From Stutzerimonas nosocomialis (GTDB lineage Bacteria > Pseudomonadota > Gammaproteobacteria > Pseudomonadales > Pseudomonadaceae), in NCBI RefSeq assembly GCF_005876855.1, contig NZ_QLAE01000021.1:1-64000 (forward strand): a DNA stretch of 64,000 nt, read 5' to 3'. The translations under genes were made by a program, and so were the position numbers. Below the pieces are notes generated by a model that did no database searches, was not told the DNA's origin, and saw nothing but the letters and a program-made list of their open reading frames with translations. Positions 17,276-27,359 of the stretch are shown in pieces; within the stretch, counting starts at the first letter, position 1; every line of letters starts with the position of its first letter.

Positions 17276-18256
17276 TCACAGCCAGCCCTTTTCCTTGTAG
17301 AACCGCTCGGCGCCTTCGTGCAGCGGGGCGGTCAGGCCGACGCGGATCATGTCCTCGGCGTTCAGATCGGCGAAGGCCGGATGCAGGCGTTTGAACCGGT
17401 CGAGGTTGTCGAACACGGCCTTGACCAGCTCGTAGACGACCTCCGGGTCGGTCCTGCTGGTGGTCGCCAGCACCGCCTTGCCGCCGATCGACGGGACGGC
17501 CGAGGCAACGCCCGGATAGAGCCCGGCCGGGATCTCGGCCGCGGTGTAGTAATCGGCTCCGGCGAGCAACCGATCGATCTCCGGGCCTGTCACCGGGATG
17601 ATGCTGGCCTTCACGTTGGTCAGGGCTTCCTGGATGGCGCCGCTGGGATGGCCGACCACGTAGGTGATGGCGTCGAGGTTGTTGTCGCCCAGCGCCGAGG
17701 CCATCTCCGCCGGCTTGAGCTCGGCGGCCAGGGCGAAATCGGTGTTGCTCCAGCCCTTGGCCCTCATCACTTCCTCGAAGGTATCGCGGCTCCCCGAGCC
17801 CGGCACGCCGACGTTCACCCGCTTGCCCTTGAGCCCGTCGAGGTCGCTGATGCCGCTGTCGTTGCGGACGACCACGGTGAGGATTTCGCTCTGCAGGGAG
17901 AACACCGCGCGCAACTCCTCGACCGCGCCGCCCTTGTCGAAAGGCGCCAATCCCTGCTGCGCCTTGTGCTGGTGGTCGGACTGGATGAAGCCGAAGTCGT
18001 ACTCGCCGTTCTGCATCGACACGATGTTGGTCACGCTGCCGGCCGTGGACGGCGCATTGCACTTGATCGGCGGTGTGCGCTCGGCGCGGTTGAGAAAACG
18101 GCAGACCGACTGTCCGGCGGTGTAGTAAACGCCGGTCTGGCCGCCGGTGCCGATGGTGACGAAACGTTCCTGCGCCAGGGCGCCGGTGCCTGTCAGGGCG
18201 CCGCTGACGGCGGCCAGGGTGACGCCGAGCAGGCCGATACGGATCTGATGCTTCAT
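17276..18256 (-). CDS. TAXI-family TRAP solute-binding protein without partner permease
   Basis: The 326-residue protein has a signal peptide (MKHQIRIGLLGVTLAAVSGA, cleaved near ALAQE). The TAXI signature follows: FVTIGTGGQTGVYYTAG, STAGSVTNIVSMQNGEYDFGF and VNVGVPGSGSRDT. TAXI proteins bind substrates such as glutamate or other small organic acids and deliver them to a fused TRAP permease. No TRAP permease gene lies next to it; the dctQM genes at 22-24 kb belong to another operon with its own DctP. It is the third gene of a dadA-ridA unit, and the 92-base gap has no terminator, so it is probably cotranscribed. Start chosen at the ATG preceding the signal peptide. Confidence 0.9.
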   Translation of the reverse strand: MKHQIRIGLLGVTLAAVSGALTGTGALAQERFVTIGTGGQTGVYYTAGQSVCRFLNRAERTPPIKCNAPSTAGSVTNIVSMQNGEYDFGFIQSDHQHKAQQGLAPFDKGGAVEELRAVFSLQSEILTVVVRNDSGISDLDGLKGKRVNVGVPGSGSRDTFEEVMRAKGWSNTDFALAAELKPAEMASALGDNNLDAITYVVGHPSGAIQEALTNVKASIIPVTGPEIDRLLAGADYYTAAEIPAGLYPGVASAVPSIGGKAVLATTSRTDPEVVYELVKAVFDNLDRFKRLHPAFADLNAEDMIRVGLTAPLHEGAERFYKEKGWL

Positions 18257-18348
18257 CGTGGTTCCCTCGTGTGATGGGTCGGAGCAGCGTTCGCCACCGT
18301 GTCTCGTCCGTGACGATCCCGGCGGTGTAGGGCGGTGATTGCCCGGGA

Positions 18349-18702
18349 TCAGGCCCGCGCAGCGATCACCATGATTTCCACCAGCACCTGCGGCGATGCC
18401 AGGCGCGCCTGCACGGTCGCCCGGGCCGGCGCGCAGCCCTCGGGCAGCCATGCGCTCCAGGCCTGGTTCATCGCGGCGAAGTCGGCATCGATGTCCTTGA
18501 GCCAGATTTGCGCGCTGAGCAGGCGGCTGCGGTTCGAACCCGCGGCCTCCAGCAGCCGATCGATCTTGGCCAGTACCTCGCGGGTCTGTCCGGCGGCATC
18601 CAGGCTGCGGTCGTCGGGCACCTGGCCGGCGAGCAATACCAGGTCGGCGTAGGTGACCGCGGCTGACAGGCGCGGGTTGCTCTCGATGCGTTGCAGGGTC
18701 AT
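18349..18702 (-). CDS. RidA/YjgF family enamine/imine deaminase
   Basis: The 117-residue protein has the RidA layout: ADLVLLAGQVPDD near the N-terminus, TREVLAKIDRLLEAAGS in the helix, LLSAQIWLKDIDADFAAMN, then GCAPARATVQARLASP with the conserved Arg that binds carboxylate in the active pocket, and VLVEIMVIAARA at the end. RidA proteins hydrolyse reactive imines and enamines released by PLP enzymes and amino-acid oxidases. It begins 18 bases after a DadA-like dehydrogenase gene, whose imino-acid product is a natural RidA substrate. It is therefore likely to be a pathway-specific partner rather than the housekeeping RidA. Confidence 0.9.
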   Translation of the reverse strand: MTLQRIESNPRLSAAVTYADLVLLAGQVPDDRSLDAAGQTREVLAKIDRLLEAAGSNRSRLLSAQIWLKDIDADFAAMNQAWSAWLPEGCAPARATVQARLASPQVLVEIMVIAARA

Positions 18703-18720
18703 GGATGGCCTCGTCGTTTG

Positions 18721-19965
18721 TCAGGAAGCAAGGGTCAGGCCGTCCAGGGAGACGGCCGGCAGGTATCCGCCGATCAGGCTGCTGAGCAGGTCGGCGCTGC
18801 CGCAGGCGAGGGTGAAGCCCAGGCTGCCGTGGCCGACGTTGAGCCAGAGGTTGTCGATGCCGCTGCGTCCGAGCAGCGGCGTGCCTTCGGGCGTGGCCGG
18901 GCGCAGGCCGGCCCATTGCCGGGCGTTGCGATAGTCGCCCGCACCCGGGAAGGTTTCGCTGGCCAGGCGCTGCAAGGTGCCGATTCGTCCCGGGTCGAGG
19001 TCGCCGTCCCAGCCGCCGATGTCCACCATCGCGGCGACCCGCAGCTGATCGCCGAGGCGCGCGTAGACCACCTTGTTGTCGTAGTCGGTCACGTTGGTCT
19101 GCGGCACGTTCGCTTCGCTGGCCAGCGGCAGGGTCAGGCTGTAGCCCTTGAGCGGATAGATCGGCAGGTCGATGCCCAACGGGCGCAGCAGCGCGACGCT
19201 GCCGGTGCCGGCGGCGATCACCAGATGGTCGACGTCGAGCTCGCCCTCGTCGAGCTCGACCGCCCGCACCCGGTTGCGCTCGGTGCGCACGGCCGTCACC
19301 TGGCGCCCGGCATGCAGGCGGAACGCAGGCAGGGCGCAGAGCCGTTGCAGCAGGCGTTGGCAGAACAGGTGACAGTCGGCCACCTCATCGCCCGGGGAAT
19401 AGATGCCGCCCTGCAGCGATGCGGCGAGCGGTGCCAGCGCGGGCTCCACCTCGACGCAGCCGTTCGCATCCAGCAGCCGCTGCCCGGCCGCGCCATCGAG
19501 ACCGGCCGATGCCTTGCGCAGGGAGGTTCGGTCTCGATGGATCACCAGCTTGCCATTGGCACGCCAGTCGAAGCCCTCGAGCCGGTCCTGTTCACGCCAG
19601 GTGCGCAGGATCTGCTGGCTGTGCAACGCCAGGCGCAGCAGGTGCGCCGCGTTGCGGCGGTTGACCGAACGCCGGCAGGCGAGCAGGAAACGCAGGCACC
19701 AGCGCCACTGGTGCAGGCTGGCGCGTAGCCTGAAACGCAGCGGCCCGTCCTCCGCGCGCAGCATCCAGCCGAGGGCCTGGAGCGGCACGCCGGCATCGGC
19801 CAGCGGCGACACGTAGCGGTAGCTGAGTTGGCCGCCATTGGCAAAGCTGGTTTCCAGCGCGACCTCGTCGCGCCGCTCGATCAGCTCGACCTGATGCCCC
19901 TGGCGCACCAGTGAATAGGCCGTGGTCAAGCCGATCACGCCCCCGCCGATGACTGCTACCCGCAT
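18721..19965 (-). CDS. DadA-like FAD-dependent D-amino-acid dehydrogenase
   Basis: The 414-residue flavoprotein begins with the dinucleotide-binding motif VIGGGVIGLTTAYSLVRQGH followed by an acidic residue at the strand end (ELIERR). It has the DadA-type FANGGQLSY segment, LVIAAGTGS, YPLKGYSLT and the C-terminal WAGLRPATPEGTPLLGRS and NLWLNVGHGSLGFTLACGSA. The enzyme oxidises D-amino acids to imino acids, feeding electrons to the respiratory chain. GAGGAG lies 8 bases before the ATG. It is the first gene of the unit with ridA and the TAXI binding protein and is divergent from a LysR regulator. The operon as a whole suggests uptake and oxidation of a D-amino acid or related amine, which is an inference. 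Confidence 0.92.
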   Translation of the reverse strand: MRVAVIGGGVIGLTTAYSLVRQGHQVELIERRDEVALETSFANGGQLSYRYVSPLADAGVPLQALGWMLRAEDGPLRFRLRASLHQWRWCLRFLLACRRSVNRRNAAHLLRLALHSQQILRTWREQDRLEGFDWRANGKLVIHRDRTSLRKASAGLDGAAGQRLLDANGCVEVEPALAPLAASLQGGIYSPGDEVADCHLFCQRLLQRLCALPAFRLHAGRQVTAVRTERNRVRAVELDEGELDVDHLVIAAGTGSVALLRPLGIDLPIYPLKGYSLTLPLASEANVPQTNVTDYDNKVVYARLGDQLRVAAMVDIGGWDGDLDPGRIGTLQRLASETFPGAGDYRNARQWAGLRPATPEGTPLLGRSGIDNLWLNVGHGSLGFTLACGSADLLSSLIGGYLPAVSLDGLTLAS

Positions 19966-21022: not shown

Positions 21023-21320
21023 ATGATCCACGACTCGCCGCTCGGGCGTTACCGGCAGGCCCTCGACGAGGGCGACTTCGGATGCGGTCGTGCAGGTGGC
21101 GACCGGCGACCGGGAGTTGCCGCGGCTCGCCCCGCGGGATGACGGCGTCCGGCGCTTCATCGCCCTGGTCGACGAGTGCTACGACCGCCGTGTGCCGCTC
21201 TACCTCGAGGCCGAGGTGCCGCTCGAGGCGCTTTATGCGGACGGCTATCTGTCGTTCGCCTTTCGCCGCACCGCGAGCCGCCTGCGCGAGATGCAGCTGC
21301 AGCGCTTCGGCGTTCGCTGA
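21023..21320 (+). pseudogene. Remnant of zapE (AFG1-like ATPase), internally deleted and frameshifted
   Basis: The ATG at 21023 starts a reading (SPLGRYRQALDEGDF) that matches the N-terminus of ZapE. After about 20 codons the frame changes near 21080. The other frame then gives DAVVQVATGD and soon the family's C-terminal block RRFIALVDECYDRRVPLYLEAE-like sequence, then VPLEALYADGYLSFAFRR and SRLREMQ, ending at 21320. ZapE is about 370 residues. The whole nucleotide-binding core, including Walker A and B, is missing. The remaining pieces add to roughly 100 codons, so the gene cannot be functional. The N-terminal and C-terminal blocks are recognised by similarity to E. coli ZapE as I recall it. 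A functional zapE is expected elsewhere in the genome. Confidence 0.75.
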
Positions 21321-21326
21321 AGGCCG

Positions 21327-21605
21327 TCACTCGCGGTAGAAGACCTGCACCAGGTGATAGCCGAACTGGCTCTTCACCGGCCCGTGAATCTCGCGCAGCG
21401 GCTTCTTGAAGATCACCTGGTCGATGCTGCGCACCATCTGGCCGGGGCGGACCTCGCCGAGGTCGCCGCCTTTCTTTCCGGACGGGCAGGTGGAGTGTTT
21501 GCGCGCCAGGACGTCGAAGGCCTCGCCGTTGGCCAGGCGCTTCTTCAGCTGCGCGGCTTCGGCTTCGGTCTTGACCAGAATGTGGCGGGCCATGGCTTTG
21601 GGCAT
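21327..21605 (-). CDS. ppiC: PpiC-type parvulin peptidyl-prolyl isomerase
   Basis: The 92-residue single-domain parvulin matches E. coli PpiC in length and motifs: ARHILVKTEAEA, LAKRHS-like LARKHSTCPSGKKGGDLGE, RPGQMV and the closing VKSQFGYHLVQVFYRE. It has no signal peptide, so it is cytoplasmic. The ATG at 21605 is chosen because GAGGAG is 8 bases upstream; an internal ATG four codons later lacks a well-placed site. It is convergent with the zapE remnant. Confidence 0.94.
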   Translation of the reverse strand: MPKAMARHILVKTEAEAAQLKKRLANGEAFDVLARKHSTCPSGKKGGDLGEVRPGQMVRSIDQVIFKKPLREIHGPVKSQFGYHLVQVFYRE

Positions 21606-21707
21606 TGCGGTACTCCTCGAACGCGGACCCGATTGTAGACGGGGCCAGGTGGGTTTCGCAGCTCCGGCGCCGGCGAGGGGATGAAAAGGTGGTTTGTCAT
21701 TTGCGTT

Positions 21708-21721
21708 TGGTAGCGCTACCA
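21708..21721. promoter_or_regulatory. GntR (LacI-family) operator O1
   Basis: TGGTAGCGCTACCA is a perfect 14-base palindrome with the central CG typical of LacI-family operators. It lies 53 bases before the start of the gluconokinase-DctQ gene. A GntR-type LacI regulator is encoded at the far end of the same cluster, and a near-identical site lies inside the first gene. Confidence 0.8.
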
Positions 21722-21773
21722 TCGAGACAAACAAACACAAAATGCAACACTCGATGTTGCCGGAGAGTCGTCA

Positions 21774-22919
21774 GTGGATTCCTCCTTTCAACCCTCGCGT
21801 TCCGCGTTCTGCAGAACACTGGTGGTAATGGGCGTCAGCGGATCGGGCAAGACCGAGACCAGCCACGCCATCGCCCAGGCCCTGGGTTATCGTCACATCG
21901 AAGCCGATCATTTCCATCCCGAAGACAACGTCCAGCGCATGCGCGCCGGCACGCCGCTGTCCGACGCCGACCGCATCGAGTGGCTGCAGCGGCTGACGGT
22001 CGAGATGCGACGCGCGGTCGATGACGGCGTCGGCTTCGTGCTCGCCTGCTCGGCCCTCAAGCGTCGCTACCGCGACCTGCTCCGTGACGCGGTGCCATCG
22101 CTGTGCTTCGCCCATCTGGAGGTCGACTACGACACGGCGGTCGAGCGGGTTGGCGGGCGGGCCGGTCATTTCATGCCCATTTCCCTGGTCGACAGCCAGT
22201 TCGCCACCCTCGAATCGCCCGCCGGAGAACAGGGCGTGCTGGTGGTGGATGCCTGCCAGCCACGCGAGCGGGTGGTGGCCGAGGTGCTCGCCTGGGTCGG
22301 GCAGACACCGGGGGCGGGCATCGAGGAGCGGGTGGATCTTTCCGCGCGCCCGGTTGGTAGCGCTAACACCTCGCCCCGCCATGCGCCTCCCTTGACCCGC
22401 GAGCCGATCTACACCGGGATGCTGGCCCAGGGTTTCGATCGCCTTACCGATTGGCTGATGGCGGCGCTGATGGCCTTCATGGTCATCGTGGTGTTCAGCA
22501 GCGTGGTGCTCCGCTATGCCTTCGGCACGGGCTGGACCGGCGCCGAGGAGCTGTCCCGGCTGGCGTTCGTCTGGCTGGTGTTCGTCGGCGTCGCGTCGAG
22601 CATGCGCCGAGGCGAGCTGATGAGCTTCGGCATGCTGCGCGATCGCTTCCCGCATGCCCTGCAACGTGTGGTCGACAGCCTCAGCTGGGTGCTGGTCGCC
22701 GCCGCCAGCCTGCTGGCGGCCATGGGTGGATGGAACCAGATGCAGTTCGGCTGGACCATCAACAGCCCGGTGGTGGGGTACCCGCTGGCCCTGGCCACGC
22801 TGCCGATTCTGGCGAGCATGGTGGCGCTGGCGATCCTGGCGCTGGTGCAGCTGGTCAACGTCTGGCGGCGTGCCGCCGCACCGCCGCCACCGGCCGCCGC
22901 CAACGTCACCGCCGACTGA
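21774..22919 (+). CDS. Gluconokinase fused to TRAP small permease (GntK-DctQ)
   Basis: A single uninterrupted frame of 381 residues joins two proteins. Residues ~14-190 are a GntK-type gluconokinase: Walker A MGVSGSGKT (Lys at 26), EADHFHPEDNVQRMRAGTPL, DDGVGFVLACSALKRRYRD and HFMPISLVDSQFATLE. This half phosphorylates gluconate to 6-phosphogluconate. Residues ~216-381 are a four-helix DctQ-type small TRAP permease, including VVLRYAFGTGWTGAEELSRLAF and RRGELMSFGML. The linker (~190-215) is Pro/Arg-rich and its DNA contains a second GntR operator. Start is the GTG with GGAGAG upstream. An in-frame ATG at 22419 could allow separate translation of the DctQ half. The next gene is the large permease, so gluconate is the likely substrate. 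Confidence 0.9.
   Translation: MDSSFQPSRSAFCRTLVVMGVSGSGKTETSHAIAQALGYRHIEADHFHPEDNVQRMRAGTPLSDADRIEWLQRLTVEMRRAVDDGVGFVLACSALKRRYRDLLRDAVPSLCFAHLEVDYDTAVERVGGRAGHFMPISLVDSQFATLESPAGEQGVLVVDACQPRERVVAEVLAWVGQTPGAGIEERVDLSARPVGSANTSPRHAPPLTREPIYTGMLAQGFDRLTDWLMAALMAFMVIVVFSSVVLRYAFGTGWTGAEELSRLAFVWLVFVGVASSMRRGELMSFGMLRDRFPHALQRVVDSLSWVLVAAASLLAAMGGWNQMQFGWTINSPVVGYPLALATLPILASMVALAILALVQLVNVWRRAAAPPPPAAANVTAD
22355..22368. promoter_or_regulatory. Second GntR operator (O2) inside the fusion linker
   Basis: TGGTAGCGCTAACA differs from O1 at two of 14 positions and lies within the coding sequence between the kinase and DctQ domains, about 50 bases before an in-frame ATG at 22419. It looks like a promoter-operator region captured into the reading frame, or an auxiliary site allowing looping repression. 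Confidence 0.7.
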
Positions 22920-22953
22920 TAACAAGACGGGCACTGCCCACCGAGGTTCGAAC

Positions 22954-24231
22954 ATGACCGTCGTGGTTTTTCTCTCTTCGCTGCTCGGCTTCATGGCCTT
23001 CGGCATGCCGATCGCCTTCGCGCTGATCCTCACCGGCGCGGTGCTGATGTGGTACCTCGATTTCTGGGACGTGCAACTGCTCGCCCAGAACCTGCAGGCC
23101 GGCGCCGACAGCTTCCCGCTGCTGGCCGTGCCTTTCTTCATCCTGGCCGGCGAGCTGATGAACGCCGGCGGGATTTCACGCCGCATCATCGCCATGGCGC
23201 AGGCCTATTTCGGCCACAAGCGCGGTGGCCTGGGCTACGTCGCCATCGCCGCCTCGGTGCTCCTGGCGAGCATGTCCGGCTCGGCCCTGGCCGACACCGC
23301 CGCGCTGGCGACGTTGCTGCTGCCGATGATGCGCGAGCGAGGCTACCCGCTGAGCTCGTCTTCGGGGCTGGTGTCGGCGGGCGGCATCATCGCGCCGATC
23401 ATTCCGCCGTCGATGCCCTTCGTCATCTATGGCGTGGTGACCAATACCTCGATCAGCCAGCTGTTCCTCGCCGGGATGGTGCCGGGGCTGATCATGGGCA
23501 TGGGGCTGGTGGTGGCCTGGACCATCATCGCCCGCAAGATCGACGAGCCGAAGCAGGAAAAGGCCAGCGCGGCGGTGCGCCGCAAGGTGCTGGTGGACGG
23601 CGCGGCGGCGCTGATGCTTCCGGTGATCATCGTCGGCGGGCTGCGCGGCGGGCTGTTCACCCCGACCGAAGCGGCGGTGGTGGCGGCGGTCTATGCGCTG
23701 GCCGTGTCCACGCTGCTGTATCGCGAGCTTAACTGGGCGGGGCTGGTGGAGGTGCTGACCCGCGCCAGCCGGACCACCGCCTCGGTGATGTTCCTCTGCG
23801 CCGCGGCTACCGTGTCGGCCTACATGATCACCCTGGCGCAGCTGCCCGACGAGATTGCCGTGATGCTCGGCCCGCTGGCCGAGAATCCCAAGCTGCTGAT
23901 GGTCGCCATCATGCTGCTGATGATCGCCGTCGGCATGGTGCTCGACCTGACCCCGACCATCCTGATCCTGGGCCCGGTGCTCGCGCCGATCGCCATCAAG
24001 GCGGGCATCGACCCGGTCTATTTCGGCGTGATGTTCGTGCTGATCGGCTCGATCGGCCTGATCACGCCGCCGGTGGGCACGGTGCTCAACGTGGTGGGCG
24101 GCATTGGCCGGCTGCGCATGGAGACGCTGGTGCGCGGGGTGGTCCCGTTCTTCCTGATCTACATGGTCATCGTCGTGCTGCTGATCGCCGCGCCGTCGAT
24201 CATCACCGCGCCGCTGGCCTGGCTTCGCTGA
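22954..24231 (+). CDS. TRAP transporter large permease (DctM type)
   Basis: The 425-residue, strongly hydrophobic protein has about twelve membrane segments. DctM motifs include FGMPIAFALILTG, SFPLLAVPFFILAGELMNAGG, LASMSGSALADTAALATLLLPMM, SAGGIIAPIIPPSMPFVIYG and GLITPPVGTVLNVV. It forms the Na+-driven transport channel with the DctQ domain of the upstream fusion. The start lies 34 bases after that gene. Substrate is inferred as gluconate or a related sugar acid from the kinase and repressor in the same cluster. Confidence 0.95.
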   Translation: MTVVVFLSSLLGFMAFGMPIAFALILTGAVLMWYLDFWDVQLLAQNLQAGADSFPLLAVPFFILAGELMNAGGISRRIIAMAQAYFGHKRGGLGYVAIAASVLLASMSGSALADTAALATLLLPMMRERGYPLSSSSGLVSAGGIIAPIIPPSMPFVIYGVVTNTSISQLFLAGMVPGLIMGMGLVVAWTIIARKIDEPKQEKASAAVRRKVLVDGAAALMLPVIIVGGLRGGLFTPTEAAVVAAVYALAVSTLLYRELNWAGLVEVLTRASRTTASVMFLCAAATVSAYMITLAQLPDEIAVMLGPLAENPKLLMVAIMLLMIAVGMVLDLTPTILILGPVLAPIAIKAGIDPVYFGVMFVLIGSIGLITPPVGTVLNVVGGIGRLRMETLVRGVVPFFLIYMVIVVLLIAAPSIITAPLAWLR

Positions 24232-24319
24232 GCACCACCTGCCTGGCCCGCGATTCGACGGGCCAGGCCCTCGCCACGGCGAGGAATGATTCTTCCCACA
24301 ACAACAAAAGGTACGTGTC

Positions 24320-25336
24320 ATGAAAAGCTTGCTCATCGCCGCCCTGGCGGCCGCCACCTTCGGTGGCTCCCTCGTTGCCGTCAGCGCCCAGGCGGCTGAC
24401 GACATCCGCCCACGGATGATCCGCTTCGGCTACGGCCTCAATGAAGACAGCAACCAGGGACGCGCGGCCAAGCTGCTCGCCGAGGAGGTCGCCAAGGCCT
24501 CGGGCGGCAAGCTGAAGATGCGCACCTTCGCCTCGGCCAGCCTCGGTTCGGACGACCAGATGCAGAACGCGCTGATCGGCGGCGCCCAGGAAATGATGGT
24601 GGGTTCGACCGCGACGCTGGTGGGCATCGCCAAGGAAATGGCCGTGTGGGACACGCCGTTCCTGTTCATCAACGAGAAGCAGGCCGACCATGTGCTCGAC
24701 GGCCCGGTAGGGCGGCAGGTGATGGACGCGCTGGAAGCCAAGGGCATGGTCGGGCTGGTGTATTGGGAGAACGGCTTTCGCAACCTGACCAACAACGTCC
24801 GCCCGATCGAGAAGATGGAAGATTTCAACGGCGTGAAGCTGCGGGTGATGCCCAACCCGGTGTTCATCGACACCTTCCGCCAGATGGGCGCCAACGCCGT
24901 GCCGCTGCCGTTCTCCGAGCTGTTCACCGCGCTGGAGACCAAGGCGGTCGATGGCCAGGAAAATCCCTACAACACCATCCTGTCGTCCAAGTTCTACGAG
25001 GTGCAGAAGTACCTGAGCGTGACCAACCACGTCTACAGCCCCTGGATCGTGACCGCGTCCAAGCGCTGGTGGGACGGCCTGTCCAAGACCGAGCAGGAGA
25101 TCATCATGCAGGCGGCCGTGAAGGCCCGCGATGCCGAGCGTGAGGACACCCGCGCCGAAGCCCGCGAGGCGCTGGCAGCGATCAGGGAGCACGGCATGCA
25201 GATCAACGAGGTCACCCCCGAAGAGGTGGCGCGGATGCGCGAGAAAGCCAAGCCGGCGATCCAGACGGTGATCGACACGGTGGGGCAGCCATTGTTCGAT
25301 CAGGTCCAGGCCGAAATCGCAAAGGCACCGCAGTAA
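24320..25336 (+). CDS. TRAP transporter substrate-binding protein (DctP type)
   Basis: The 338-residue periplasmic protein has a signal peptide (MKSLLIAALAAATFGGSLVA, cleaved near AQAAD). The DctP core contains SLGSDDQMQNALIGGAQEMM, NGVKLRVMPNPVFIDTFRQM with the conserved substrate-carboxylate Arg, and PFSELFTALETKAVDGQENPYNTI. It follows the large permease by 88 bases, giving the order kinase-DctQ, DctM, DctP. Its ligand is probably gluconate or a similar aldonate. A UUCG-loop hairpin follows the stop codon. Confidence 0.94.
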   Translation: MKSLLIAALAAATFGGSLVAVSAQAADDIRPRMIRFGYGLNEDSNQGRAAKLLAEEVAKASGGKLKMRTFASASLGSDDQMQNALIGGAQEMMVGSTATLVGIAKEMAVWDTPFLFINEKQADHVLDGPVGRQVMDALEAKGMVGLVYWENGFRNLTNNVRPIEKMEDFNGVKLRVMPNPVFIDTFRQMGANAVPLPFSELFTALETKAVDGQENPYNTILSSKFYEVQKYLSVTNHVYSPWIVTASKRWWDGLSKTEQEIIMQAAVKARDAEREDTRAEAREALAAIREHGMQINEVTPEEVARMREKAKPAIQTVIDTVGQPLFDQVQAEIAKAPQ

Positions 25337-25344
25337 GGCTGTCG

Positions 25345-25364
25345 GGCGCCTCTTCGGAGGCGCC
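25345..25364 (+). terminator. Hairpin with TTCG tetraloop after dctP
   Basis: An 8-bp GC-rich stem (GGCGCCTC / GAGGCGCC) closes a TTCG loop nine bases after the dctP stop. There is no T-tract, so it may be an mRNA 3'-end stabiliser or a partial terminator that reduces read-through into the repressor gene. Confidence 0.6.
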
Positions 25365-25407
25365 TGCCAAACGGTAGAATCGCGCCTCCCCAGTTTCCGG
25401 ATCCGTC

Positions 25408-26427
25408 ATGAGTTCTCGTCGCCGCCGCTCGCCGGAGCGAGCCACCCTGTCCGATGTCGCCAAGAGCGCCGGCTGTTCGCTGATGTCCGCATCGCGGGCG
25501 CTGTCGCAACCCGAACGGGTATCCGATGCCCTGCGCGAGCGGGTCATGGAGGCGGTGCGGGCGCTGGGCTACGTGCCGCACCCCGCGGCCCGCAGCCTGG
25601 CCAGCGCCCGTTCCAACCTGGTCGCGGTGATCATCCCGTCGCTGTCCAACGCGGTCTTCGTCGACACCGTGGAGGCGATCCAGCGGGTGCTGATGCCTGC
25701 CGGCTACGAGCTGATGATCGGGGTGAGCCATTACCGTCCCGAAGAAGACGAGCGGCTGCTGCGGGCCTATCTGGCGCATCAGCCGGCCGGGCTGCTGGTG
25801 ACCGGTTTCGAGCGCAGCGACGCGGCGCGCGAGGTGCTCGGCAGCTACGACAGTCCCATCGTGACCCTGATGGAGCTCAGCGACGCCGAGGAAGACTATT
25901 GCGTCGGGTTCTCGCAGTTCGACGCCGGCGCGCAGATGACGCGCCACCTGCTGCAGCGCGGTTACCGGCACATCGCCTTCGCCGCCGCCCAGCTGGACCC
26001 GCGAACCCTGCAGCGCGCCGAAGGTTATCGCCAGGCGATGCGCGAGGCCGGGCGCCACGAACCGGCGCTGGAGCTGCTGACCCCCGCGGTGTCGTCCATT
26101 GGCCTGGGCGCCGAGCTGCTCGACCAGTTGCTGGCCCGCCATCCCGAAATCGATGCGGTGTTCTTCAACAACGACGACCTGGCGCTCGGCGCGCTGTTTC
26201 GCGCGCGTCAGCTGGCGCTCGAAGTGCCGCAGCGCCTGGCCATCGCCGGTTTCAACGATCTGCCGGCGGCGGCCTGGATGCATCCGGCGCTGACCACCGT
26301 ACGCACCACGCGCGGGCGGATAGGGGAGCTGGCCGGGCAGATGCTGCTCAGCCTGATGCGCGGCGAGCAGCCGCCGCAGCGGCGCATCGACGTGGGTTTC
26401 GAGGTGGTGATGCGTGACAGCGCCTGA
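25408..26427 (+). CDS. gntR: GntR-type LacI-family repressor of gluconate genes
   Basis: The 339-residue protein has a LacI helix-turn-helix (ATLSDVAKSAGCSLMSASRALSQPERVSD), the hinge helix (PHPAARSLASARS) and a periplasmic-binding-fold effector domain (LVAVIIPSLSNAVF, YSPE-like HYRPEEDERLL, FFNNDDLALGALF, IAGFNDLP). This composition is that of GntR of gluconate catabolism. Its predicted operator, TGGTAGCGCTACCA-like, occurs twice in the adjacent operon. The gene lies 71 bases after dctP in the same direction and may be partly cotranscribed. Confidence 0.9.
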   Translation: MSSRRRRSPERATLSDVAKSAGCSLMSASRALSQPERVSDALRERVMEAVRALGYVPHPAARSLASARSNLVAVIIPSLSNAVFVDTVEAIQRVLMPAGYELMIGVSHYRPEEDERLLRAYLAHQPAGLLVTGFERSDAAREVLGSYDSPIVTLMELSDAEEDYCVGFSQFDAGAQMTRHLLQRGYRHIAFAAAQLDPRTLQRAEGYRQAMREAGRHEPALELLTPAVSSIGLGAELLDQLLARHPEIDAVFFNNDDLALGALFRARQLALEVPQRLAIAGFNDLPAAAWMHPALTTVRTTRGRIGELAGQMLLSLMRGEQPPQRRIDVGFEVVMRDSA

Positions 26428-26441
26428 GGCGCTGCGCCCGC

Positions 26442-27359
26442 TCACTCGGCCCGGCTTGCCTGGGCGGTGACCTGCTGGGCGATCTCGATCATCTGTTCGC
26501 GCATCCAGCGGTTGGCCGGGTCCTGGTCCGTGCTCTCGTGCCAGTAGATGTGGGTTTCCAGCGTCGGGATGTCCACCGGCAGCGGCGCCTGATGCAGGTC
26601 GTGGCGGCGGGCGAAGCGCTCCGGCACGGTCACCGCCATGTCGGTCTGCTGGATGACCTGGGTCGCCATCATGTAGTGCTGCGAGCGCAGGGCGATCTTG
26701 CGCTGCTGGCCCATCTTGCCCAGCGCCAGGTCGACCATGCCCAGGCCGCTGCGGCGGCTGGAGATGTGGATGTGCGACAGCGACAGATACTCCTCCAGGC
26801 TCAGGCGTTCCTTGGCCAGCGGATGCCCGCGGCGCATGGCGCAGACGTAGCGGTCCTCCAGCAGCTTGACGTGGCGGACCTGCGGATCGGTATTGAGGGG
26901 CGCGTCCATGGCGAAATCCAGCCGCCCGGCGGCCAGTTCCTTGGTGGTCTCGCGGCGCTTGGCCAGCATGCTTTCGATCTTCACGTTCGGCGCAAGCCGG
27001 CGCAGCCGCTGGAACAGGGGCGGCAGGACCACCGCCTCGGTGAGGTCGGTCATGCTGATGCGGAAGGTCTTGTTGGCCTGCAGCGGGTTGAAGGTGCGGC
27101 TTTCCTGGACCGACACCCGCAGCAGCTGCAGTGCGTTGCGCACCGGGCCGATGATGTTCTGGGCCATGGGTGTGGGCACCATGCCTTGCGCGGTGCGCAC
27201 GAACAGCGGGTCGTTGAAGGTCTCGCGCAGGCGGGCCAGGGCGTTGGAAACCGCGGGCTGGGTGATGCCGACGATCTGCCCGGCACGGGTCAGATTCGCC
27301 TCGGTATAGATGGCATCGAACACGATGAACAGATTGAGATCGACCTTGTTCAGATTCAT
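26442..27359 (-). CDS. LysR-family regulator divergent from an acyl-CoA dehydrogenase
   Basis: The 305-residue protein has the LysR N-terminal domain MNLNKVDLNLFIVFDAIYTEAN then GITQPAVSNALARLRETFNDPLFVR, of the NodD/LinR-like subgroup that starts with L-N-L-F, and an effector domain from about residue 90. The ATG at 27359 is preferred; the extension to 27458 reads through the divergent promoter region. The 141-base AT-rich gap to the acyl-CoA dehydrogenase gene contains an ATCA-N8-TGAT repeat that could be its site. Regulation of that dehydrogenase is inferred from gene orientation only. Confidence 0.88.
   Translation of the reverse strand: MNLNKVDLNLFIVFDAIYTEANLTRAGQIVGITQPAVSNALARLRETFNDPLFVRTAQGMVPTPMAQNIIGPVRNALQLLRVSVQESRTFNPLQANKTFRISMTDLTEAVVLPPLFQRLRRLAPNVKIESMLAKRRETTKELAAGRLDFAMDAPLNTDPQVRHVKLLEDRYVCAMRRGHPLAKERLSLEEYLSLSHIHISSRRSGLGMVDLALGKMGQQRKIALRSQHYMMATQVIQQTDMAVTVPERFARRHDLHQAPLPVDIPTLETHIYWHESTDQDPANRWMREQMIEIAQQVTAQASRAE

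Follow-up and report, generated by a model that had tools for sequence, protein, structure and literature searches.

The 64,000-nucleotide stretch of Stutzerimonas nosocomialis DNA analysed here (the window) carries on its + strand, at 21774-22919, a single open frame for a protein of 381 aa (41.4 kDa) in which a gluconokinase is fused to DctQ, the small permease of a TRAP transporter. The gene starts with GTG, ends with TGA and is preceded by CCGGAGAGTCGTCA, within which GGAGAG constitutes a plausible ribosome site. The GntK-type kinase domain (residues 15-176; 21816-22301) is joined by a flexible linker (residues 177-213; 22302-22412) to the DctQ domain (residues 214-368; 22413-22877), all on the + strand. 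The kinase half scores 176.6 bits with TIGR01313 (GntK/IdnK-type gluconokinase; cut-off 113.75, E 3e-52), residues 16-175 aligning with model positions 1-162 of 164. The DctQ half scores 85.7 bits with PF04290 (cut-off 28.3, E 3e-24), and here residues 236-366 cover the entire model (1-132 of 132). Foldseek placed the kinase closest to the gluconate/sugar kinases 3t61, 4eun and 1ko5. The scores remained below those required for narrower assignments: the kinase reached 124 bits against cut-offs of 265 and 304 for the E. coli-type gluconokinase equivalogs PRK11545 and PRK09825, and the DctQ half 58.3 bits against a cut-off of 260 for the YiaM-type small permease equivalog PRK09877.

An AlphaFold2 model was computed from the aligned sequences of the window protein and 59 relatives (60 of the 73 distinct fusions described below). 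It was confident for the kinase (block means 86-97, with two exceptions at 76 and 82), left residues 181-211, that is, most of the linker, disordered (pLDDT <50) and resolved the DctQ half into four long helices (216-250, 255-279, 294-328 and 335-365), three of which were also flagged by a simple hydropathy scan. With a pTM of 0.51, the model gives no placement of the kinase relative to the DctQ half. Profiles and model thus agree with the original prediction that one frame encodes a complete GntK-type kinase and a complete four-helix DctQ. The predicted linker is likewise present, but instead of about 25 residues it measures nearer 36 in the window gene (between residues 176 and 213); among the 73 fusions, 13 different lengths of 26-61 residues occur, all of them in frame. 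Both domains were matched in all 60 of the proteins scanned from this set, TIGR01313 at E 1e-10. Of four kinase motifs of this family, Walker A is present in 73/73 fusions, D-x-x-H in 72/73, CSALKxxYR in 70/73 and GHFMP in 68/73; the window protein carries all four.

The fused gene is followed, on the same strand, by genes for the large TRAP permease DctM (22954-24231; 425 aa; TIGR00786, 437 bits), the solute-binding protein DctP (24320-25336; TIGR00787) and, as the last gene of the operon, the LacI-family gluconate repressor GntR (25408-26427), which scores 487 bits against the cut-off of 400 for the Pseudomonas GntR equivalog NF052440. The DctQ half is therefore encoded beside DctM and DctP, and the order fusion-DctM-DctP-GntR is kept in all 32 of the 73 fused loci with enough downstream sequence. 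The closest solved relative of DctP is the TRAP receptor 7bbr (phmmer E 5e-101), which we take to be CxaP of Advenella. The available text of one report describes 7bbr with bound 2-keto-3-deoxy-gluconate (PMC11668362), and that of another has CxaP accept several sugar acids, D-gluconate included (PMC12076931). Since the closest solved receptor binds 2-keto-3-deoxy-gluconate, the substrate of the operon may be broader than gluconate; the families of the kinase and of the repressor nevertheless make gluconate a plausible assignment. GntR of P. aeruginosa is stated to respond to gluconate and 6-phosphogluconate (PMC5902321, in the part available). In the tail of the window GntR, a tetramerising helix like that of LacI was not visible by eye. 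Elsewhere in the window, at 17276-19965 (- strand), an NMT1-like binding protein, presumably a TRAP receptor of the TAXI type, and a RidA-family gene (PF01042) have a DAO-family oxidase and a LysR gene as neighbours.

The fusion was found without a stop in 45 of the 56 genomes searched in the genus, 42 as single matches and three (G022, G031 and G053) as two in-frame matches each that became single alignments when realigned. A family sample of 398 genomes, own genus included, yielded 27 further full-length, stop-free fusions in three other genera (2, 3 and 22). Fusion-bearing genera show 59-90% identity to the window. Removal of duplicates, many of which represent the same strain in two collections, reduced 106 fused loci to 73 distinct DNA sequences. 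The check proposed with the original prediction, whether the architecture is conserved across strains, thus has a positive outcome within the genus and beyond it. The finding that would have spoken for two genes, close relatives all carrying a stop near codon 190, was not obtained, the closest relative (89%) being fused as well. Because the frame is conserved stop-free across the genomes of genus and family, chance and assembly or sequencing error are ruled out as the source of the fusion.

The remaining genus genomes comprise one with a frameshift, three with the kinase half alone (G007, G015 and G044) and seven without the gene, five of which (G011, G021, G034, G037 and G051) have another GntK-type kinase. 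The frameshift, in G047 (L090), falls in the linker and splits a gene that is otherwise of the fused type; this sole split gene of the genus may reflect mutation or sequencing error. The kinase-only genes (L091, L093 and L092, respectively) end 173-175 codons past Walker A. A deletion reaching from the linker through gntR has occurred in these genomes, and the DNA behind the stop was recognized by eye as the end of the LysR gene found on the far side of gntR in the window; no operator is left at these loci within three mismatches of the consensus described below. In a tree that took in 22 of the 73 fusions, fused kinases and the three kinase-only genes formed one clade (100/99; the bootstrap had not settled). 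The kinase-only genes nest inside the fused clade, subject to the same unsettled bootstrap, and therefore look like later losses of DctQ; since the kinase was kept, the tether is not needed by it in these three genomes. A second GntK-type gene was listed in 15 of the 45 fused genus genomes and none in the other 30 (E ~3e-6 or better; this covers the GntK type, to which the gluconokinases of the FGGY family are unrelated). The window's genome belongs to the former, its second gene (G000:C35:12585-13064; L002, L126) being 37% identical.

Outside the family, gntK and dctQ are separate genes in all ten homologous operons opened (Comamonas, four Azospirillum, Rhizobium, G504, G937, G1110 and G1119). 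They overlap by ATGA at the sequence level in two Azospirillum records, G504, G1110 and G1119, and by four bases according to annotation in the two further Azospirillum records. In Comamonas and G937 the gap is <20 bases and includes a ribosome site, and in Rhizobium two ORFs in different frames lie ~30 bases apart if DctQ starts at the first ATG behind the kinase. As in the fused operons, gntK, dctQ and dctM adjoin one another in Comamonas, Azospirillum, Rhizobium and other proteobacteria, together with dctP where the sequence reached that far. The six plasmid records among them also have a LacI-family regulator beside the operon, but upstream and on the opposite strand rather than as the last gene. 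An AGCGCT core between the separate gntK and dctQ was absent from all seven outside loci tested at the sequence level. Among the matches listed of 369 class-wide and 398 phylum-wide genomes, samples that include some genomes of the family itself, no stop-free match over both halves was found outside the family; as the E limits were 1e-40 and 1e-35 and no more than 4-5 candidates were scored in each genome, distant fusions may have escaped notice. Two apparent candidates were rejected: in G937 the two halves are separated by a stop and a new start, and Comamonas, although aligned in one piece, has two genes. In the plasmid collection 460 records matched, and the six opened were all unfused; phage records gave 14 matches, all of which covered less than 80% of the query.

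Estimates of dN/dS of about 0.18 and 0.21 for the two halves as compared with 0.59 for the linker (1039 pairs, DctQ dS 0.1-0.8) indicate that both halves are under purifying selection and that the protein sequence of the linker is weakly constrained. The DNA of the linker appears to be constrained in a different manner. The operon is preceded by a sigma-70-like promoter (TTGTCA-17-TACCAT; 21694-21722, + strand), the only promoter-like match in 21300-26700, where 0.5 is expected in shuffles. A GntR-type operator with a TAGCGCT core (O1, TGGTAGCGCTACCA, 21708-21721) overlaps its spacer and -10; GntR operator cores have been published (PMC5902321, PMC12195362; both sources available in part). A second, inner operator of the same type (O2, TGGTAGCGCTAACA, 22355-22368) lies inside the linker codons. 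The exact motif TGNTAGCGCTANCA occurs twice in the 4.76 Mb genome, at the operon promoter and in the linker, and within the window O1 and O2 give four two-strand matches at <=2 mismatches as compared with 0.67 expected. Allowing one mismatch genome-wide adds two further sites, against 22 for a reversed control pattern, so that only the exact motif is specific and looser forms are uninformative. Fused genus genomes contain two exact copies in 40 of 45 cases and one in the other 5, and the kinase-only genomes none anywhere; the reversed exact pattern gave 23 matches over 56 genomes. The places of the copies were taken from a genome-wide listing through G046 and from other comparisons for later genomes. 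One genome without the fusion, G009, has two exact operators 201 bases apart (G009:C66:97461-97675; L147); this operator-like pair adjoins another LacI-family regulator and was discounted.

The inner operator is present within three mismatches in 68 of the 73 fusions, being missing from L059, L086, L098, L100 and L101, and its codons are nearly fixed: GAT in 69/71 sequences, AGC in 67/67, GCT in 67/68 and AAC in 46/46 where the residue is Asn (46/73). AGC is favoured at other Ser columns too, which leaves GCT as the telling codon. This rare codon accounts for 67 of the 68 Ala codons at the operator column as compared with 418 of 3463 (12%) overall, those 67 included, and its next highest use among 39 Ala columns is 37%. 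Although the sequences are related and do not count as independent, near fixation at mean synonymous distances of 0.6-0.9 in the pairs used points to selection on the DNA. Alternatively, the inner operator may be a relic without a present role, held by the protein sequence Asp-Ser-Ala alone. These residues are indeed kept in at least 90% of the 60 aligned proteins, and five fusions manage without the DNA motif. This explanation would fail to account for the fixed codons amid linker residues that vary, and the three genomes deleted from DctQ to GntR have lost the exact motif altogether, though the linker DNA itself was removed there; we consider a relic quite unlikely. Least probable of the readings considered here, and very doubtful, is that the site marks a second GntR-controlled promoter from which dctQ-dctM-dctP are transcribed separately. 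Separate transcription of gntP from a GntR-controlled promoter has been reported in P. aeruginosa, where the GntR sites overlap the polymerase site at gntP (PMC5902321, available in part), and an operator core stands shortly behind the kinase gene in four of five loci in which GntP adjoins gntK. In the fusions, by contrast, the last T of the -10 is present at one of 68 inner sites as compared with 73 of 73 upstream sites, the mean -10 match is 2.6 as compared with 4.0 of 6 and the mean -35 match 2.6 as compared with 3.3 of 6, no promoter-like match lies there, and a transcript from this point would lack a conserved DctQ start codon. A separate promoter as the likely case was rejected on these grounds; the inner sites, without the -10 T and with a poorer -35, look like an operator without a promoter. 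The linker DNA may accordingly constitute a second repressor site, with the inner operator as a candidate for GntR binding. The distance between O1 and O2 ranges from 629 to 664, and a fixed spacing, which was looked for across the fusions, was not found. In view of this variation and of a GntR without a LacI-like tetramerising helix, looping is not assured. The inner site may act as a roadblock, through a loop or by aiding local binding; of the first two, the roadblock is slightly preferred, given the lack of a visible tetramerising tail. A stretch upstream of the inner operator, at 22335-22343 (residues 188-190; GATCTTTCC), is possibly part of a wider DNA element: Leu occurs there in 43 sequences and is encoded by CTT in 39 of them.

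Comparison with known systems places these features in context. Pseudomonas gntK-gntP loci resemble the fusions in having a GntR-type core just behind the kinase gene. The core is located at +507 to +516 from Walker A in four of the five loci with GntP adjoining gntK, and at 531 in many fusions (start of the 14-mer at 527); the exception is L094, where GntP adjoins gntK and no operator core was found behind gntK. Accordingly, a second operator appears at the kinase-transporter boundary in both kinds of locus. They differ from the fusions in that GntP belongs to another transporter family and the operator stands in the intergenic gap rather than in codons. In P. plecoglossicida, GntR footprints have been reported at gntP, the gntK-gntP gap is 100 bp at most and the authors offer, as one speculation, the absence of a promoter at gntP (PMC12195362, in the part available). 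GntP-linked kinases form a clade separate from the fused kinases in our tree with 22 of the 73 fusions. Nine of its rows are labelled gntP; adjacency of GntP was confirmed for five, and L128 adjoins another gene. Long branches meet where the fused kinases join the GntP-linked and TRAP-linked kinases, either of which may have given rise to the fused kinase. As for the fusion itself, it resembles SiaQM-type and rare Q-P TRAP fusions in that the DctQ half is joined to a protein of the same system; in the portions available of two reports, the TRAP fusions described combine Q with M or with P rather than with a cytoplasmic enzyme (PMC8276074, PMC5812351). The claim that no transporter-kinase fusion of this kind has been characterised is not contradicted for metabolic kinases, as neither a gluconokinase-TRAP fusion nor a TRAP transporter fused to its own metabolic kinase was found in the open-access literature. 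It is too broad for kinases in general, since CbrA of Pseudomonas combines a transporter and a kinase domain in one protein; unlike in the window fusion, this is a signalling histidine kinase and does not act on the imported substrate (PMC13022988, available in part).

Taken together, we think it probable that the fusion is genuine, old and selected, a kinase tethered to its transporter whose linker DNA doubles as a GntR operator. Gluconate or 6-phosphogluconate would release GntR from its operators, and polymerase would transcribe a single operon yielding the gluconokinase-DctQ fusion, DctM, the periplasmic sugar-acid receptor and GntR. The fusion would be translated as one polypeptide of ~41 kDa, and its DctQ half would dock on DctM to give the importer. 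The Q subunit of SiaQM has an N-in/C-in topology, both ends being cytoplasmic (PMC9971032, available in part), so that a kinase attached to the N-terminus by a tether of 36 residues would be located on the exit side. The kinase would thus hang from the cytoplasmic N-terminus of DctQ near the exit of the transporter, converting incoming gluconate to 6-phosphogluconate for the Entner-Doudoroff pathway. The linker DNA, as a second GntR operator, would tighten repression of the operon without being a promoter, either as an obstacle to elongating polymerase or in co-operation with the promoter operator. Tethering of the enzyme to the importer would follow from the architecture; faster trapping, or some other gain, may result from it. 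Translation as a single product, gluconate as the substrate and control of the operon by GntR, with binding to the inner site, are likewise inferred.

Several other explanations have to be weighed against this one. The strongest rival, which we regard as a serious possibility though short of an even chance, is that the fusion is real and yields one protein but provides no channelling: the stop of gntK would have been lost in overlapping or nearly overlapping genes, and the fusion kept because DctQ is now without a start of its own. The unfused gntK and dctQ genes indeed overlap by ATGA or lie within ~30 bases of each other, the fusions form one clade, no conserved internal start remains, the linker is loosely constrained and three genomes keep the kinase alone. 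Persistence over genera at 59-90% identity, together with repeated changes in linker length without separation of the halves, exceeds what would be expected of a neutral accident, although neither proves a benefit. A different cause for the fusion may lie in the dual-coded linker itself: a GntR operator would have become essential at the boundary between kinase and transporter, and the frame would have been kept open through it. We consider this unlikely. If it were true, DctQ would have stayed coupled to the kinase via a frame open through the operator. A polymerase stopped by GntR would leave a transcript without a stop codon, so that no free kinase would accumulate without the transporter, and an all-or-none switch of kinase and importer would be built into one polypeptide. 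Finally, free DctQ, and perhaps free kinase, might arise by internal initiation at ATG 22419 or GTG 22332. The former was part of the original prediction, as an alternative, and did not hold up: this ATG (Met216) is found in two of the 73 fusions, the window and its nearest relative (L006), and is ruled out as a conserved mechanism. All 73 share a single in-frame ATG, which is located within helix 1 and has a ribosome-site-like motif in none of them. More favourable is the GTG at residue 187 of the window gene (22332), which follows GAGGAG (22323-22334), so that a free DctQ could be started in the window strain; in general, this start is not conserved. Between the kinase and helix 1, 19 of the 73 fusions have an in-frame start with such a motif and 54 have none, and the frame is kept through all 13 linker lengths. 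We therefore regard internal initiation as very unlikely, and a single polypeptide would, judging from these sequences, be the rule.

It has long been asked whether an enzyme that traps an imported substrate benefits from attachment to the importer. The gene described here offers a kinase-importer fusion kept in several genera of one family, for which the unfused and the kinase-only relatives represent natural controls. What appears to be new is the putative GntR-type operator carried by the linker of the kinase-DctQ fusion. An operator embedded in linker codons would provide a clean, testable case of one stretch of DNA serving both as a protein tether and in the control of genes.
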